Both the position numbers and the translations under genes were made by a program. A DNA stretch of 64,000 bases from Pseudarthrobacter sp. NIBRBAC000502772 (GTDB lineage Bacteria > Actinomycetota > Actinomycetes > Actinomycetales > Micrococcaceae): NCBI RefSeq assembly GCF_006517235.1, contig NZ_CP041188.1:3968001-4032000 (forward strand), given 5' to 3'. The notes beneath the pieces are model-generated. The model worked only from the letters and a program-made list of their open reading frames with translations, did no database searches and was not told where the DNA came from. Each line of letters begins with the position of its first letter. The stretch's first letter is position 1. Shown piece after piece: positions 32,329 through 37,876 of this stretch.

Positions 32329-33111
32329 TCATTTGATGGTGAACTGCTGCGCCATGGTCCAGAGGTTGGTGGTGGTCCAGTAGATCAGGACGCCGATTGG
32401 GAAGAGTACGCCGCCCACACCGAAGACGAACGGCAAGATGTACATGATCACCTTCTGCTGGCGCGCGAGCGGATTGTCTGCGGCATCGTCAGGCACGGTC
32501 CGGGCCACGATCCGTCGTTGCGTGATGAACTGCGCGGCCGTCATGGCCAGGATCATAACGATAGTCAGTACCAGGACCGCCGCTGGGTCGCCACCACTGC
32601 CGTGCAGCACGGACGCTGACAGCGGGGCGCCGAAAATGCTTGAGTCGTCGAACTGCACAGCCTGTTCGTGGGTCATCGCTCCGATGCCGTGGGCTTCCCT
32701 GGCTGCGGCTGGGATGCCGGAGAGTACTTGGAAGAGCGCGAAGAAGAACGGCACCTGGATGAGCATCGGCAGGCAGGCGGACAGCGGATTGGTCCCGTGT
32801 TCCTTGTAGAGGGCCATCTGTTCCTGTGCCATGGCCTGCCGGGACAGCTGATCGGTCTTGCCCTTGTACTTTTCCTGCAGCCTCTTCAGGTCCGGCTGCA
32901 GGAGCCGCATCCGGCGCTGGGCCTTGACCTGCTGCAGGAACACCGGAATCAGGGCGGCACGGATGATCAGCACCAGGCCGATGATGGACACAGTCCACGT
33001 CCAGCCGCTGGCCGCAGGCATCCCCATGCTGCTCAGGACGTCATGGATTCCGACCATGACGGCGGATACAAGCCAATTGAACGGACCCATGATGGTTCCG
33101 AAGAAGTCCAC
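32329..33111 (-). CDS. YidC/Oxa1-type membrane insertase, second type
   Basis: A 260-residue YidC-like insertase with about five membrane helices, the family loop KAQRRMRLLQPDLKRLQEKYKG in two parts, and LPMLIQVPFFFALFQVLSG. It stands alone, not in the usual rpmH-rnpA-yidC-jag cluster, so the genome probably has another copy. The reading starts with GTG at 33111. Its position just before the low-GC island may be chance. Its clients cannot be predicted. Confidence 0.85.
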   Translation of the reverse strand: MDFFGTIMGPFNWLVSAVMVGIHDVLSSMGMPAASGWTWTVSIIGLVLIIRAALIPVFLQQVKAQRRMRLLQPDLKRLQEKYKGKTDQLSRQAMAQEQMALYKEHGTNPLSACLPMLIQVPFFFALFQVLSGIPAAAREAHGIGAMTHEQAVQFDDSSIFGAPLSASVLHGSGGDPAAVLVLTIVMILAMTAAQFITQRRIVARTVPDDAADNPLARQQKVIMYILPFVFGVGGVLFPIGVLIYWTTTNLWTMAQQFTIK

Positions 33112-33640
33112 AACAATCCCCCATCGCCACGTGCAGCAAAGCTACGGCGAAAAGGAGCACTTGTCACGGCCTCGCGCCGCCGCAAACACACGGTCCTGCG
33201 GGGTTTTTGGGATCGGAACTGTTCGCGACCTCCGGGACATGGTCGCGTCCCTGAATTGTAGACGCCCGTCTACGGGTACCAACGTTGTCAGGACGATGAC
33301 CTGCGGCCTCTCACCGAATGTCAGAGCATCGGGATAGAGGCCAGAGATTTCCGACCGCCTGAGGCCTGTTGTGCCGGCGAAAGGATCAGAAGTCTGTACA
33401 CGTCGTGGGCTGCGTCCACCATTTGCAGCTTGTTCGGCGAATGCCGGGAGCTGTGCAACCGTCCGCGCGGCGGGATTCCTGATGGACTTGAAACTAGGGA
33501 AAGCCCTCTATGTCGTTCAGTAAACCATTACTCCATCGTTTTGACTAACTCATCGACGCTAGCTACGCTCATGCGGGGGTGCCGGTTAAAGGAGGGAATA
33601 AACTTTCCGCCGGCTCGCTCAAATAAGGGGGAAAATCTAA
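33112..33640. other. Intergenic region at the left edge of the low-GC island
   Basis: About 530 bases without a supported gene. The first ~150 are the upstream region of the yidC-like gene. From about 33480 the base composition becomes AT-richer, marking the island. A promoter (33541-33569) and SD-like AAAGGAGGG (near 33586) precede the peptide gene; the latter has no start codon at a proper distance. I see no tRNA-derived att copy or integrase remnant. Confidence 0.6.
33541..33569 (+). promoter_or_regulatory. Promoter of the peptide/ABC/protease operon
   Basis: TTGACT (33541-33546) and TACGCT (33564-33569) are 17 bases apart. The leader to the ATG at 33641 would be about 65 bases and contains an AAAGGAGGG purine run and a second one (AAGGGGG) before the start codon. 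Confidence 0.5.
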
Positions 33641-33886
33641 ATGGGAACAGCACTTCAGCTCATGATTCCTGGGGGAGCCGTTATTGAAGCAGACATCAAA
33701 CGTCGCTTTGACGAATCACTTGTTCGGTTTGATGCCTGGTATCTCGTGGCAGTTGCTATCTTGATTGTGGTCGGAGGCGCTGTGCTGCTCGGCATGGCTG
33801 CGTGGTGTGTCATCTTCCAGAATAAGCGCTTCAGCGGCCGGTTCTACTTCAATAATGGCTTTGAGGTCTTCATGGAGTGTGTGTAA
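33641..33886 (+). CDS. 81-residue single-span peptide, candidate precursor
   Basis: A small protein with an N-terminal amphipathic part (residues 1-32, charged IKRRFDESLVRFD), one membrane helix (about 33-58) and a 23-residue tail rich in Phe, Asn and Gly (FSGRFYFNNGFEVFMECV). Cysteines are at 56, at the end of the helix, and 80, the next to last residue. A SD-like GGGGG run is ~10 bases upstream. It is the first gene of a unit with an ABC exporter and an intramembrane protease and is separated from them by a hairpin, as usual for abundant precursor peptides. I infer that it is a substrate to be cut and exported; its mature form and activity are unknown. Confidence 0.6.
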   Translation: MGTALQLMIPGGAVIEADIKRRFDESLVRFDAWYLVAVAILIVVGGAVLLGMAAWCVIFQNKRFSGRFYFNNGFEVFMECV

Positions 33887-33900
33887 CTAGTTAGGTACTA

Positions 33901-33935
33901 GGGGAGCCTGTGGAGGTCTGCTTGGCAGGCTCCCC
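33901..33935 (+). terminator. Hairpin between peptide gene and ABC genes (attenuator-like)
   Basis: GGGGAGCCTG (33901-33910) pairs perfectly with CAGGCTCCCC (33926-33935) across 15 bases, 14 bases after the peptide stop and 26 before the ATPase start. It is followed by TTCACTTG, not by a clean T run, so partial read-through is likely. Such a hairpin would give more peptide mRNA than transporter mRNA. Confidence 0.65.
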
Positions 33936-33961
33936 TTCACTTGGGAATTAAGGCAAAATTT

Positions 33962-34693
33962 GTGAAGACTATACTCGACGTTAGCAAGGTTTCATTTTCG
34001 TATGGATCCGGGCCGATCGTCCTGTTCGAAACAGACTTAGTCGTTGGCGAGGGCCAGATTGTTGGACTCGTAGGTCCCAATGGCTCGGGGAAATCAACGT
34101 TGATCAATTTAATTTTTGATAACTACCAACTTAAGCGGGGACGAATTCAGCTGTCCGGGCAGGATCACCAGCAGTTGGATGCGAAGAAGTCAGCTATTTA
34201 CCTGCCCAGCGAAGACTTTCTTCCTGACTTTCTCACCGGACGCGAGTACTACCGGGCAGTCGAGCAAATGTATGGAACGTCCGAGGTCAGTGCTGATGAG
34301 GTCAGCGCAGTATTCCAAGCGTTAGGCATGGACGGACGGGAGGAGCACCTGATCGAAGACTACTCACACGGAATGAGGAAGAAGGTGCAATTCCTAGCCG
34401 CATTCCTCCTGGATCGACCCCTAACGGTTATCGATGAGACCTTCAACGGAATCGACCTGGACGCACAGCGCTATTGCGCGCGGCGTCTTGCTGAAATGAG
34501 AGAACGTGGCAGGGCTGTCTTGCTGTGCACGCACGACTTTTCAATACTCGAGGAGCTTGCCGACGATGTTGTTGTGATGAAGAAAGCCCTGATATTGGAT
34601 CGGATTTCCATTGAGGAGTTGCAAAAAGAGGGGACAACGCTCAAGTCATGGGTTGATGAGATGCTGTTCGGAAGTGAGCATGAAAGCGTCTAA
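33962..34693 (+). CDS. ABC transporter ATPase of the peptide system
   Basis: A 243-residue ABC ATPase. Walker A is VGPNGSGKST, the signature YSHGMRKK is slightly unusual, Walker B is LTVIDETFNGID, and the switch histidine is in LLCTHDFS. The start is GTG 33962 with AAGG at SD distance; an upstream TTG at 33941 lies next to the hairpin. The gene overlaps the permease gene by 14 bases. With the following 12-helix permease it makes an exporter of the kind found with small peptides, bacteriocins or toxins. Codon and base use are those of the island, not of the surrounding chromosome. Confidence 0.85.
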   Translation: MKTILDVSKVSFSYGSGPIVLFETDLVVGEGQIVGLVGPNGSGKSTLINLIFDNYQLKRGRIQLSGQDHQQLDAKKSAIYLPSEDFLPDFLTGREYYRAVEQMYGTSEVSADEVSAVFQALGMDGREEHLIEDYSHGMRKKVQFLAAFLLDRPLTVIDETFNGIDLDAQRYCARRLAEMRERGRAVLLCTHDFSILEELADDVVVMKKALILDRISIEELQKEGTTLKSWVDEMLFGSEHESV

Positions 34694-36101
34694 TACCCTC
34701 CTACTTGTTCGCCTGCTGACGACGTACATGCGTCGGCGTGTCCTTTCACATGGCCTCTTGCGGGATTCATTTTTCAGGCTGGGCATTGCGGCTGCTGCAA
34801 TCCTCACACTGGCAGCTCTAACCCTGTTTGCTTTCCTCTTCCTGTCGCCGGTGGTGGGCAACGCAGGCACTCTGGAGTTTCTCGTCCGCATAGCGAGCAT
34901 TTCAACGGTCAATTGGACCATCCTCGCCTTCCTCTTCGTTCGAGTCCTTTTCGGTCGGTCGTCTGACATGATGGCTTTCACATGGCAGCTTCCTTTGACG
35001 AACCGGCAGCGGTCGGCTGCCTTGACAACGTTTGAAGCTCTTATAATTCTCGGAATCATCGGACTCGTATTCGTCCCTGCTAGTATCGCGGTAGTCATTC
35101 TGACCGGATTTACAGGGTTAATCTTCATTCTAGAAGGTATTGCTTTTCCCGCGGTATGTGCTTTCACTGTGCTTCTGATCATAAACAACCTTGTTATGAG
35201 GATCCTGAACGCCCTAAAACTGTCTCGTATTGCGACTCTTGTTAGCTTGGTCGTATGCGCCACGTTGTTGGGAACGTTCGCTGCAATAACGCAGACACTC
35301 GCGAATGTTATGTCCGTCGATTTTCTAGAGCGGCGCCCTGGCTACCACTTCACCGACAGCTTCGTTACTTTGGGTAGGACCTACGGAGACTTTGCGGCTG
35401 TCATTGCCTTTTTCGTTATAGCTATTTCGACCGGGATTATCGCTTGGCTAACAATCCCAGACTCATATACGACGGGACGGAAGTTCTTTGGAATCAGCTT
35501 CCGTCATACATGGACGTCCACAGAACTTGGTTGGTACGTCCTGGCATGGATTCGGCGGGCGGATACATGGTTGGCAATAGTGGGGACGTATGCCGTTGCG
35601 GCAGTACTGTTAGTGCAAGCACCTAATAACCTTGTATATTCAGTTGGTATCCTGACTGCCCAAGCCCTCTATCATTTTTCTGCAACCCGGTCACTCAGGC
35701 GCCTTCCTGGAACCGCAGGATCGGCGGGTCGAACGCTGCTCCTGCTGCTAGGTTCTCAGGTTATTGGCGTGGTCGTAGTATCGCTGCCGATTGTGGTAGT
35801 CGCCATTTTGACTGGCACTACTCTAATGCAGATTCTGCTTACGTTGGGTTCATGCATCAGCGGTGTAATCTTGCTAAATCTCCTCGGAATATTGTTTCCG
35901 CAGGACCGCGATAACCCTTTTTCAGCGATAGTGAGCTACCTCGTCTGCCTCCTTATTGTTGCCACGTTGGTTGTGGTTTTTGGAGTCATTGATCTGCCGG
36001 CGACAGTTAGCGCTGTACTTATTGGCGTATTCCATGCCGCGGGCTTGTACTATTCTCTTTTGGGTATTCAGACTGCAACACGGAAGGCGCGCTATGCGTA
36101 A
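34680..36101 (+). CDS. ABC transporter permease, about 12 membrane helices
   Basis: A 473-residue hydrophobic protein with a basic N terminus (LLTTYMRRRVL) and about 12 membrane helices. No ABC2 family signature stands out; it is the transmembrane partner of the ATPase by position (14-base overlap) and topology. A hydrophilic region around residues 275-300 (SFRHTWTSTELGWY) may be a large loop. Overlap of 8 bases with the next gene supports one operon. Family assignment is open. Confidence 0.75.
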   Translation: MKASNTLLLVRLLTTYMRRRVLSHGLLRDSFFRLGIAAAAILTLAALTLFAFLFLSPVVGNAGTLEFLVRIASISTVNWTILAFLFVRVLFGRSSDMMAFTWQLPLTNRQRSAALTTFEALIILGIIGLVFVPASIAVVILTGFTGLIFILEGIAFPAVCAFTVLLIINNLVMRILNALKLSRIATLVSLVVCATLLGTFAAITQTLANVMSVDFLERRPGYHFTDSFVTLGRTYGDFAAVIAFFVIAISTGIIAWLTIPDSYTTGRKFFGISFRHTWTSTELGWYVLAWIRRADTWLAIVGTYAVAAVLLVQAPNNLVYSVGILTAQALYHFSATRSLRRLPGTAGSAGRTLLLLLGSQVIGVVVVSLPIVVVAILTGTTLMQILLTLGSCISGVILLNLLGILFPQDRDNPFSAIVSYLVCLLIVATLVVVFGVIDLPATVSAVLIGVFHAAGLYYSLLGIQTATRKARYA

Positions 36102-36411
36102 ATTGTTTTTGGGCGTTAATGCTTTGTTTGGTGGGGCGATCCTCACCTTGATTATTGCCGCAGGTGCACTCTTGCTACTAATGGCGACGACTCCGGAAGC
36201 TGGCGTTCGCAAAGAAGGTCTGTTTGGTGGCGTTTTCTTCAGCTCCACGACGTCACCCAGCGGCAGCATCGGCATGTCGCTGGGGATAAGTTCGTGGACT
36301 AGCATTGCGACGGTTTGGCTTATATGCAGCCTTTTCATTTTTGCCGTTATTCTTGTAGTTGCCAGACTCCGTCGGTACCGTGCGTCGCTTATTGCACAGT
36401 CGAGTTCGTAG
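36094..36411 (+). CDS. Small membrane protein of the peptide system
   Basis: A 105-residue protein with two membrane helices (about 5-30 and 68-92) joined by a loop with GGVFFSSTTSPSGSIGMS. The ATG is preceded by GGAAGG and overlaps the permease stop. No family is recognised. By place and size it could be an immunity protein or a small transporter subunit, but this is only inference. Confidence 0.6.
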   Translation: MRKLFLGVNALFGGAILTLIIAAGALLLLMATTPEAGVRKEGLFGGVFFSSTTSPSGSIGMSLGISSWTSIATVWLICSLFIFAVILVVARLRRYRASLIAQSSS

Positions 36412-36424
36412 CGACTCGGCTTAT

Positions 36425-36901
36425 ATGCCGACGGCGCGCGCAGTCAGGATACTTGGACTACATGTGGGCTTGTGGGCTGCGGTCGCAGCGTTCTTTCCTG
36501 TTGTAGGCATAATCTTTGGCTTATCAGCTAATGATTCCATCTTGGTGGGGCTGTCTGCAGAGTTGGCCGTCCATGTGGTCTTTGGCTTTGGTGGTTCCTA
36601 TCTTCTGCATGAGGCGGGACATATTGTCTTGTTGACTAGGTACCCGTCTGTTGAGGGAATAGATGTAACAGCGTCGTGGACTCGTTTCTCCGTTCATCCC
36701 CGTGGTAGTCTCAGCCCGCTCCAAGTGATAGCCGTCGGATTAATCGGCCCCGTCGGTTGCTTCGTGATAGGCGCCGGCTTATGGCTGCTCGGTTCTAATC
36801 TGGCATTCTGGTACATGGGTCACATCATCTTCCTGCTCCCTATTTTTGGCGATGGCAGGGCTGTCCTCTTGTCCCTTACTAAGATGCGGGCCGTGCTGTA
36901 G
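36425..36901 (+). CDS. M50-like intramembrane zinc metalloprotease
   Basis: A 158-residue membrane protein with four helices. Helix 2 carries LLHEAGHIVLL, the HExxH zinc motif of site-2-type proteases. Near the C terminus FLLPIFGDGRAVL gives the conserved Pro and the third ligand Asp of the usual N-x-x-P-x-x-x-L-D-G motif, and LIGPVG between them matches the G-P of M50 proteins. All ligands of the active site are therefore present in a minimal scaffold. The start is uncertain: ATG 36425 has no SD, and GTG 36380 in frame would overlap the previous gene. YydH of the Bacillus yyd peptide operon is a comparable M50 protein beside an ABC exporter. Confidence 0.7.
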   Translation: MPTARAVRILGLHVGLWAAVAAFFPVVGIIFGLSANDSILVGLSAELAVHVVFGFGGSYLLHEAGHIVLLTRYPSVEGIDVTASWTRFSVHPRGSLSPLQVIAVGLIGPVGCFVIGAGLWLLGSNLAFWYMGHIIFLLPIFGDGRAVLLSLTKMRAVL

Positions 36902-37760
36902 CTTGCAAACGGCCTGACCGTTCTTGCTATGCCGGGCAATGGCGCGAGGCAAACGGGGGTCTTCCCCGGCCCGCGCCAAGCCATCCTTCGTCTCAGCAGC
37001 ACCTGCACCAGGTAGACGTAGAGGCAATTGCCGCATAGATCCACGAGCCCTGTTGGCGGTCCGTCAGGATCAACACCGCAAGGATGAGCACCTATGCCCA
37101 CCACAGAAGGTTTAGCGGCTCATAGTGGCCGCATGCGTCGTCTCGCGTGACATCCCAACCAAGTCACCCACGGTGAGGTCGGCGACCGTCTTCCAGCCGA
37201 TAGGTGTGGCAACGCGGTGCGTAAGCGTCAGCGCCGGCCCTCCGGGAACCGCGGCCACCCTTCGGCCGCGGGCTGATTCAGTCGACCTGCACAGACCATC
37301 TGGTCATTCCGTTCGGGTCCGGACCCCTTCCGTGGACTCAGGGACGCCCCGGTTGTCGAGGGTTTGCCGTCGATGCCGACCTTGAAGGCATCCGCAGTGG
37401 TGTCGACGGCCCGGCTGGCGGCTGCCCGGACCAGCGGCAGGTAGTGGGATGCAGCGTCTGCCGTCGACTGCTCACCGCGCTTGGTGTGGGCCACTGCAAC
37501 CATGTTGCGGTTGTAGGCCCGGTCCAGACGGCTGAGGGTTCTAGCTGGTGGCAGCCGACCTGGGCGCTTTAGGCGATCTAAAGGCCTTAATTCGACGGAC
37601 GGTACGATCCGCGGCACACCAAGACGATGCGGCCGTAGAGGGCCACCGAGGGGCTACCGTGGCCACGACAGCCCAGCCCCCTTCCGGGAGCAGCCATCTA
37701 CAGCCACCCCTCGGAGAATCTGAGAGACGCCTCTATTACGTGAGTCGTCATTCAAGACAG
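36902..37760. other. Gene-poor right part of the island
   Basis: About 860 bases with no intact gene. GC content rises again. On the minus strand 37112-37303 holds a Hint/intein-like fragment, and a coding-like stretch in another frame (about 37360-37530, with NMVAVAHTKRGEQSTADAAS and TTADAFKVGIDGK) lies just upstream of it. Both look like pieces of a decayed gene. I see no transposase, integrase or clear repeats. The terminator of the tRNA-Met transcript bounds the region. Confidence 0.5.
37112..37303 (-). pseudogene. Hint/intein-like fragment
   Basis: The frame open from 37303 to the TAA at 37112-37114 contains ALTLTHRVATPIGWKTVADL followed by TVGDLVGM. This matches the block-B pattern of inteins and Hint domains (T-x-x-H-x-V-x-T-x-x-G-W-x-x-V-x-x-L-x-x-G-D-x-V). 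The N-terminal splice-site cysteine and the C-terminal HN are not found in frame, so it is a remnant. It could come from an intein-bearing phage gene or from a Hint domain of a polymorphic toxin. Confidence 0.45.
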
Positions 37761-37795
37761 AAAAGCCCCCGGAATCTCGGGGATTCCGGGGGCTT
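37761..37795 (-). terminator. Terminator of the tRNA-Thr/tRNA-Met transcript
   Basis: AAGCCCCCGGAATC (37763-37776) pairs perfectly with GATTCCGGGGGCTT (37782-37795), loop of 5. On the minus strand the stem is followed by TTTTCTGTCTT, a proper terminator tail. It lies 7 bases after the end of tRNA-Met. Confidence 0.85.
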
Positions 37796-37802
37796 AGCCT
37801 GT

Positions 37803-37876
37803 AGCGGTGGGGAGGCTCGATCTCCCGACCTCACGATTATGAGTCGTGCGCTCTAACCAACTGAGCTACACCGCCA
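37803..37876 (-). tRNA. tRNA-Met (anticodon CAT)
   Basis: A 74-base cloverleaf on the minus strand. It starts GGCGGTGTAGCTCAGTTGG, has the anticodon loop CTCATAA with CAT, the T arm with GGTCGGGAGATCGAGCC-like sequence, and ends CACCGCTA. The acceptor stem begins with a G-U pair. The elongator type is favoured by the D arm (AGCTCAGTTGGTTAGAGC) and the absence of three G-C pairs in the anticodon stem. The 3' CCA does not follow. It is the likely boundary or attachment point of the low-GC island. Confidence 0.9.

Follow-up and report, generated by a model that had tools for sequence, protein, structure and literature searches.

A divergent, putative TMcin bacteriocin cluster in a low-GC island beside a tRNA-Met gene of Pseudarthrobacter

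TMcins and a related five-gene cassette

TMcins are a new class of bacteriocins, membrane-spanning antibacterial peptides that kill by forming large, stable pores, and have been studied in one member; they were first described in Nature Communications in 2025 (PMC12328743), and their biosynthesis is the subject of a 2026 preprint (PMC13252029). Here we set against this class a five-gene cassette at 33641..36901 of a 64,000-nucleotide stretch of the Pseudarthrobacter sp. NIBRBAC000502772 chromosome (NZ_CP041188.1, positions 3,968,001 to 4,032,000; the window, in whose coordinates features are given). We consider it very likely that the cassette is a TMcin biosynthetic cluster, tmcA-tmcB-tmcC-tmcE-tmcP, acquired by horizontal transfer; its genes very probably serve to make a TMcin-type bacteriocin, trim it and export it. 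The original prediction for this DNA had presented the genes as an undescribed peptide maturation and export system, a view overtaken by the two TMcin papers (PMC12328743, PMC13252029).

The studied member, TMcin-G1905 of Staphylococcus aureus (UniProt C0HMD4), kills Gram-positive bacteria through large pores. Its precursor TmcA, encoded by a 297-bp gene, has a 45-residue leader, one transmembrane (TM) helix and a C25-C50 disulfide, and the cut lies before the membrane helix, which is retained in the product. Leader removal needs TmcP, which carries HExxH with a distal Asp and belongs to DUF3267 (PF11667), together with the two-span TmcE, and secretion needs TmcBC, an ATPase with a 12-helix permease; homologues are known in Bacillota and Actinomycetota, in three gene arrangements (PMC12328743, PMC13252029). 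A protective role of TmcE is a presumption of the preprint's authors. Staphylococcal clusters have an additional DsbA-like protein, TmcD, whose gene is reported to be missing outside staphylococci and is therefore not a defining TMcin gene (PMC13252029).

All five window frames are open and lie on the + strand, at or near the positions given earlier, and the five-gene, one-direction layout of the original prediction is thus borne out by an open-frame check of the window. Scans against Pfam and NCBIfam gave the peptide, the permease and the two-span protein no match above cut-off and hence no name, and the ATPase is the only one of the five products with a confident Pfam name. All five proteins nevertheless match counterparts on the 9.3-kb mobilizable Staphylococcus epidermidis plasmid pHOB2 (NZ_CP018844.1), where a 297-bp tmcA stands fifth after tmcB, tmcC, tmcE and tmcP, accompanied by a helix-turn-helix (HTH) gene; we take pHOB2 to carry a TMcin cluster because this layout fits the published description. 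The window therefore holds the complete core operon tmcA, B, C, E, P, with a precursor homologous to TmcA as judged by way of pHOB2, and the earlier idea that a precursor peptide is served here by a dedicated protease and ABC exporter agrees with the genes of a TMcin cluster.

Like TMcin-G1905, the window combines these core genes with a precursor that has one TM helix between two Trp residues, two conserved Cys residues and a predicted C-terminal two-stranded hairpin. The two clusters differ in several respects: tmcA comes first in the window and last in the TMcin-G1905 cluster, no tmcD or HTH operon was recognised in the cassette, and the window cluster lies in a chromosomal island at a tRNA-Met gene, with a stem-loop after tmcA. 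The order on pHOB2, B-C-E-P-A, likewise departs from that of the window.

Two other described systems resemble the cassette in part. The Bacillus yyd operon, which produces the epipeptide YydF, also brings together a peptide, an M50-like protease and an ABC exporter, and had been named as the best-known relative in design; this likeness is one of gene content, and we drop it as the nearest model, as none of the five window genes matches a radical SAM family in Pfam. In a few circular-bacteriocin clusters an M50 protease lies next to transport genes, according to PMC8534725 and PMC8659200. We rejected this class: the M50 protease is the only gene in common with those descriptions, Pfam gave no SpoIIM/DUF95 match among the five genes, and the precursor is a TMcin homologue.

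Precursor, exporter, escort protein and protease

The tmcA gene (33641..33886, + strand) encodes an 81-residue precursor with 27% identity to pHOB2 TmcA over 67 residues (pairwise E 3e-11 and profile E 2e-25, both for a set of five proteins). By hydropathy it has a single TM segment, as originally claimed, whereas the tail claimed to end in Cys in fact ends in ECV, with Cys as the penultimate residue. A TM helix together with W33 and W55 is present by alignment, hydropathy and the AlphaFold model, and W33, C56, F64 and C80 are invariant across 50 aligned precursors. The AlphaFold model, of modest confidence (mean pLDDT 67.8), has a leader helix at 12-29, a break at 30-31, a helix at 32-60 and strands at 64-70 and 74-80. 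This predicted helix-plus-hairpin form is the form reported for TMcin, and the corresponding sequence pattern is conserved over two phyla in the precursor alignment. Placing the cut by the numbering of PMC13252029 predicts a leader of about 31 residues (about 1-31), shorter than the 45 of TMcin-G1905, and a mature peptide of about 50 residues (32-81) that would keep its TM helix and probably carry a C56-C80 disulfide. With one disulfide, a peptide starting at Ala32 has a calculated monoisotopic mass of 5615.9 Da and an average mass of 5619.6 Da. The product is thus probably not the tail of residues 55-81 once proposed, since the cut in TMcin-G1905 lies before a helix that stays in the product (PMC12328743, PMC13252029).

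Downstream, tmcB (33962..34693, + strand) encodes the exporter ATPase (Pfam ABC_tran, E 1.8e-22), 33% identical to pHOB2 TmcB over 209 residues; it overlaps tmcC (34680..36101, + strand), whose 473-residue product is a single-chain, two-half ABC permease with 21% identity to pHOB2 TmcC (472 columns, E 2e-27). Hydropathy assigns the permease eleven TM segments and its AlphaFold model is nearly all helix, which fits the single-chain, 12-helix type V ABC permease expected of TMcin clusters; a Foldseek search returned no match for TmcC at E<=0.001. Could these two genes instead encode an already known type of drug exporter, beside a small gene that has nothing to do with it? The ATPase has a generic match to drug-exporter ATPases (DrrA, E 2.3e-27), and in a fold comparison the permease resembles a mycobacterial efflux pump. 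The DrrA match is, however, far under the family's cut-off, among the 25 of 204 NCBIfam families listed there is none whose curated cut-off the ATPase reaches, and peptide and exporter occur together at most of the loci described below. Because this linkage is conserved, we regard the drug-exporter explanation as refuted in practice, with next to no probability left to it.

The two remaining products are small membrane proteins. TmcE (36094..36411, + strand; 105 residues) has the two TM segments (hydropathy) required of a TMcin escort protein and is 21% identical to pHOB2 TmcE (pairwise E 9e-5; profile E 1e-24, five-protein set), so that the two-span protein once proposed as a helper now has a counterpart in TmcE. 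TmcP (36425..36901, + strand), a site-2-like metalloprotease with HEAGH and GDG motifs and four TM segments by hydropathy, matches pHOB2 TmcP in a pairwise alignment limited to 35 residues (E 5e-4) and by profile at E 4e-19 (five-protein set). The histidines and glutamate of HExxH and the GDG motif are invariant among ten aligned proteases of the family, four of which, the window's included, match DUF3267 (PF11667) at E<=0.01.

A membrane protease beside an ABC exporter is also what a signal peptide would require: the cassette product would then be a pheromone, released by TmcP, exported and sensed. Membrane proteases and ABC exporters of Firmicutes do process peptide pheromones, Eep and PptAB being examples. 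No sensor gene is prominent in 17 diverse loci, among which some frames shared by many loci (such as L043:4023-4667) carry no identification; the helix-plus-hairpin pattern is retained in two phyla; and in the family to which the homology points, the one member under study is lethal and pore-forming (PMC12328743). We therefore judge a pheromone very improbable and a bacteriocin, as the original prediction allowed, probable by homology to TMcin.

For this TMcin-type bacteriocin we propose the following scheme, which adds cleavage site, disulfide, export, pore formation and killing, as reasoned from TMcin-G1905, to the gene content, homology, conservation, predicted fold and insertion site seen directly here. 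The precursor would go into the producer's membrane, where TmcP, aided by TmcE, would cleave between Asp31 and Ala32, just before Ala32-Trp33. A disulfide between Cys56 and Cys80 (mature residues 25 and 49), made by an oxidoreductase encoded elsewhere or by air, would close an amphipathic beta-hairpin against the helix end, and TmcBC would extract and export the mature peptide of about 50 residues. Once released, the peptide may enter the membranes of competing Gram-positive bacteria and oligomerise there into a beta-barrel pore ringed by helices, with TmcE, and perhaps TmcBC too, protecting the producer. The mechanism proposed originally was close to this one in outline.

Several points weigh against assigning the cassette to the TMcins. 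The window proteins share little identity with the nearest staphylococcal cluster (27% for TmcA, 21% for TmcC), and pHOB2 is itself a stand-in for TMcin-G1905, classed as a TMcin cluster by layout and not by experiment; the E-values against it were computed for a five-protein set. The DUF3267 match of TmcP (E 0.0067-0.0087) is below the curated cut-off. Two starts are uncertain, that of tmcB, where GTG at 33962, preceded by AAGG, is more likely than TTG at 33941, and that of tmcP, for which TTG 36359 and ATG 36425 are the candidates. No dedicated oxidoreductase was recognised within the cassette, and a Kandleria locus (L042:9971-10575) has tmcA and tmcE with no tmcB, tmcC or tmcP in its 20 kb. 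Taken with the evidence above and the conservation described below, we nonetheless hold with high confidence, as to both identity and inferred function, that the window carries a divergent, new TMcin of the class described in 2025; no paper on TMcin together with Arthrobacter was found in the literature collection searched. Such an actinobacterial TMcin, with its predicted 50-residue product, offers another system in which to study cleavage, escort and immunity as well as disulfide formation.

Conservation, selection and the insertion site

The original prediction called for the five-gene set to be sought in other actinobacteria, and we did so with profiles whose hits record the presence of similarity, not intact genes. 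Permease homologues with 25-29% identity over near full length occur in 13 further genomes of the genus, with a split copy in a fourteenth, giving 15 of 150 genus genomes with the window's own included. At 12 of the 14 sister loci all five profiles gave hits, in the gene order of the window. The other two, L022 and L031, showed no tmcA; the contigs break off 160 and 432 bases ahead of the ATPase frame, in L031 with a stretch resembling the end of a transposase; tmcA may have been cut off or lost there. Across phyla, one peptide pattern run over 84,980 species genomes returned 29 loci in Actinomycetota and Bacillota, 25 of them with hits to all five profiles; part of these loci come from the same species as the 14 of the genus, and the two counts are not independent. 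Two loci, L049 and L051, had no tmcE hit and matched the other four profiles, and L050, which ends at a contig end, is probably the other part of L046 from the same metagenome-assembled genome (MAG). The Kandleria genome gave no tmcC match in a search made without a positive control. Hence the peptide was largely not found without the transport and protease genes, Kandleria being one such case in 29 beside the contig-cut L050, and the five-profile hits at 12/14 and 25/29 loci, together with the purifying selection described below, argue that the five-gene set is not a chance association.

The precursor profile matched 14 of the 150 genus genomes, one of them weakly (G062, E 1.8e-4), and 14 of 396 genomes of the order, eight strongly with the own genome counted; in a set of 396 genomes of the phylum the window's own was the single match. 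Given so few matches in the three sets, the cassette is patchy and rare. Ten regions fetched from nine of the order genomes included seven with all five genes and one (L084) without a tmcE hit; at least two of the ten, L082 and L084, lie on contigs equal in size to those of L048 and L051. In one genus six hits were weak (E 4e-5 to 8e-4) and were excluded as probably false; the regions of two of the six (L088, L089) held none of the other cluster genes. A protein search with 12 precursors returned 65 proteins at E<=0.01, which, where named, are hypothetical proteins, apart from one ill-fitting Fe-S transporter label (P0027).

Some clusters depart from the complete form. Three are decayed: L030 has a break in the tmcA frame, L032 a split ATPase and a split permease, and the Kocuria locus L049 a split ATPase and a short permease frame. 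On a Peribacillus plasmid (L078) the profiles matched tmcA and an ATPase only, followed by two hypothetical proteins. One genome of the order (G413) holds two separate TMcin clusters, L086 and L087.

Such partial clusters, with tmcA broken in L030 or not found near the contig ends of L022 and L031, and with tmcB and tmcC split in L032 and L049, would be expected if the cassette served mainly for immunity or detoxification and its peptide were no active weapon in the window strain. Against this, all five window frames are open, and in seven relatives the constraint on tmcA is as strong as that on tmcB and tmcC, and we consider an immunity cassette unlikely. These seven are Arthrobacter-group relatives other than the window strain, compared in 21 pairs, of which 12-18 per gene were usable owing to saturation. 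Median pairwise dN/dS was 0.12 for tmcA, 0.11 for tmcB, 0.13 for tmcC, 0.15 for tmcE and 0.28 for tmcP, and the five genes are under purifying selection in these relatives. Within tmcA, mean pN was 0.232 over residues 1-28 and 0.104 over residues 29-79, less than half the non-synonymous variation of the first stretch, which speaks for the TMcin scheme.

The TMcin-like cassette lies within an inserted island (33204..37756, no strand assigned). As first noted from the DNA, the island is low in GC: the five genes have 0.51-0.54, and the 1-kb tiles from 33001 to 37000 have 0.50-0.55, against 0.61-0.70 in all other window tiles. The flanking positions 33203 and 37757 stand two bases apart in the close relatives L102 (about 92-93% alike here) and L103, and in L105 the flanks are also near each other, 26 bases apart. 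The island is thus a clean insertion of 4.55 kb, ending 44 bases from a tRNA-Met gene (37801..37875, - strand), the sole Rfam match. At the same site L104 holds a different insert of about 6 kb (L104:2921-9072), and the tRNA-Met end is duplicated there; one frame of this insert looks, from its sequence, like a tyrosine integrase. With the site empty in L102, L103 and L105 and differently filled in L104, the tRNA-Met (window 37757-37875) appears to be a hotspot for integration. Within the window island itself no integrase was recognised, and a direct-repeat search for attachment sites around it gave short repeats only. In a TmcC tree of 22 sequences the window sits on a long branch (1.28), apart from the clade in which the five other Arthrobacter-group sequences used are joined at full support; where exactly the window belongs has no firm support (94/92).

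The stem-loop after tmcA and thioredoxin-fold genes in Bacillota

Between tmcA and tmcB lies a stem-loop with a 12-bp stem (33900..33936, + strand). The window gap folds at -33.5 kcal/mol (z -3.35), a value matched by 1 of 200 shuffles. We compared 22 gaps, those of the window and 21 actinobacterial loci; L037 (gap too short), L059 and the Bacillota loci, with other gene orders, were left out. With G-U pairs counted, an unbroken stem of 10 bp or more is present in 20 of the 22 (window, L033, L035, L038-L040, L045-L048, L051-L058, L060 and L061), with 17 different 5' arms among the 20 stems, several of them variants in related species; the gaps of L034 and L049 have no such stem. In 17 gaps none of 200 shuffles of the same gap gave so long a stem; for the window the length was reached by 12 of 200 shuffles, for L039 by 11 of 200 and for L055 by 14 of 200. 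Folding energy reaches z <= -2.6 in 18 gaps, all except L034, L047, L049 and L061. For scale, a stem of at least 12 bp occurs in 20 of 842 76-base tiles of the window. There is no T-run 3' of the stem-loop, and a classical terminator is therefore unlikely.

We hypothesize that the stem-loop is a built-in RNA element of actinobacterial TMcin clusters that would keep the precursor well in excess of the processing machinery, through partial termination or protection of the tmcA message, whereas in several Bacillota clusters a thioredoxin-fold gene of the cluster itself would instead serve the precursor's disulfide; in our judgement the case for this proposal is evenly balanced. The words "hairpin", "stem-loop", "intergenic" and "thioredoxin" are absent from the main texts, figures and supplements aside, of PMC12328743 and PMC13252029, and both features are possibly new. 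They provide leads on two points that the preprint leaves open, regulation and the disulfide maker outside staphylococci (PMC13252029).

Three thioredoxin-fold queries found such frames in five of nine Bacillota loci; three of these five had themselves supplied the queries. The gene follows tmcA directly in two Enterococcus loci (L036:10250-10657 and L041:10222-10647) and in a Lachnospiraceae MAG (L044:1564-2142), stands after tmcP in Roseburia (L018:2314-3822) and lies elsewhere in the cluster in Paraclostridium (L079:8717-9127). These genes possibly encode the disulfide partner outside staphylococci. The window has no homologue of the three queries, among which TmcD itself was not included.

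Two of these clusters, both on plasmids, have further peculiarities. In Paraclostridium a TmcP-like protease is fused to a PqqD domain (L079:7550-8440, E 1.2e-13), in a cluster that also holds a TmcA homologue, the thioredoxin-fold gene and a second DUF3267 protein. The Roseburia cluster (L018:2314-5296) encodes a protein that combines two thioredoxin domains with a weakly DsbD-like part, and between its tmcP and tmcB there are also an unnamed 108-residue protein and a cysteine desulfurase-like gene.

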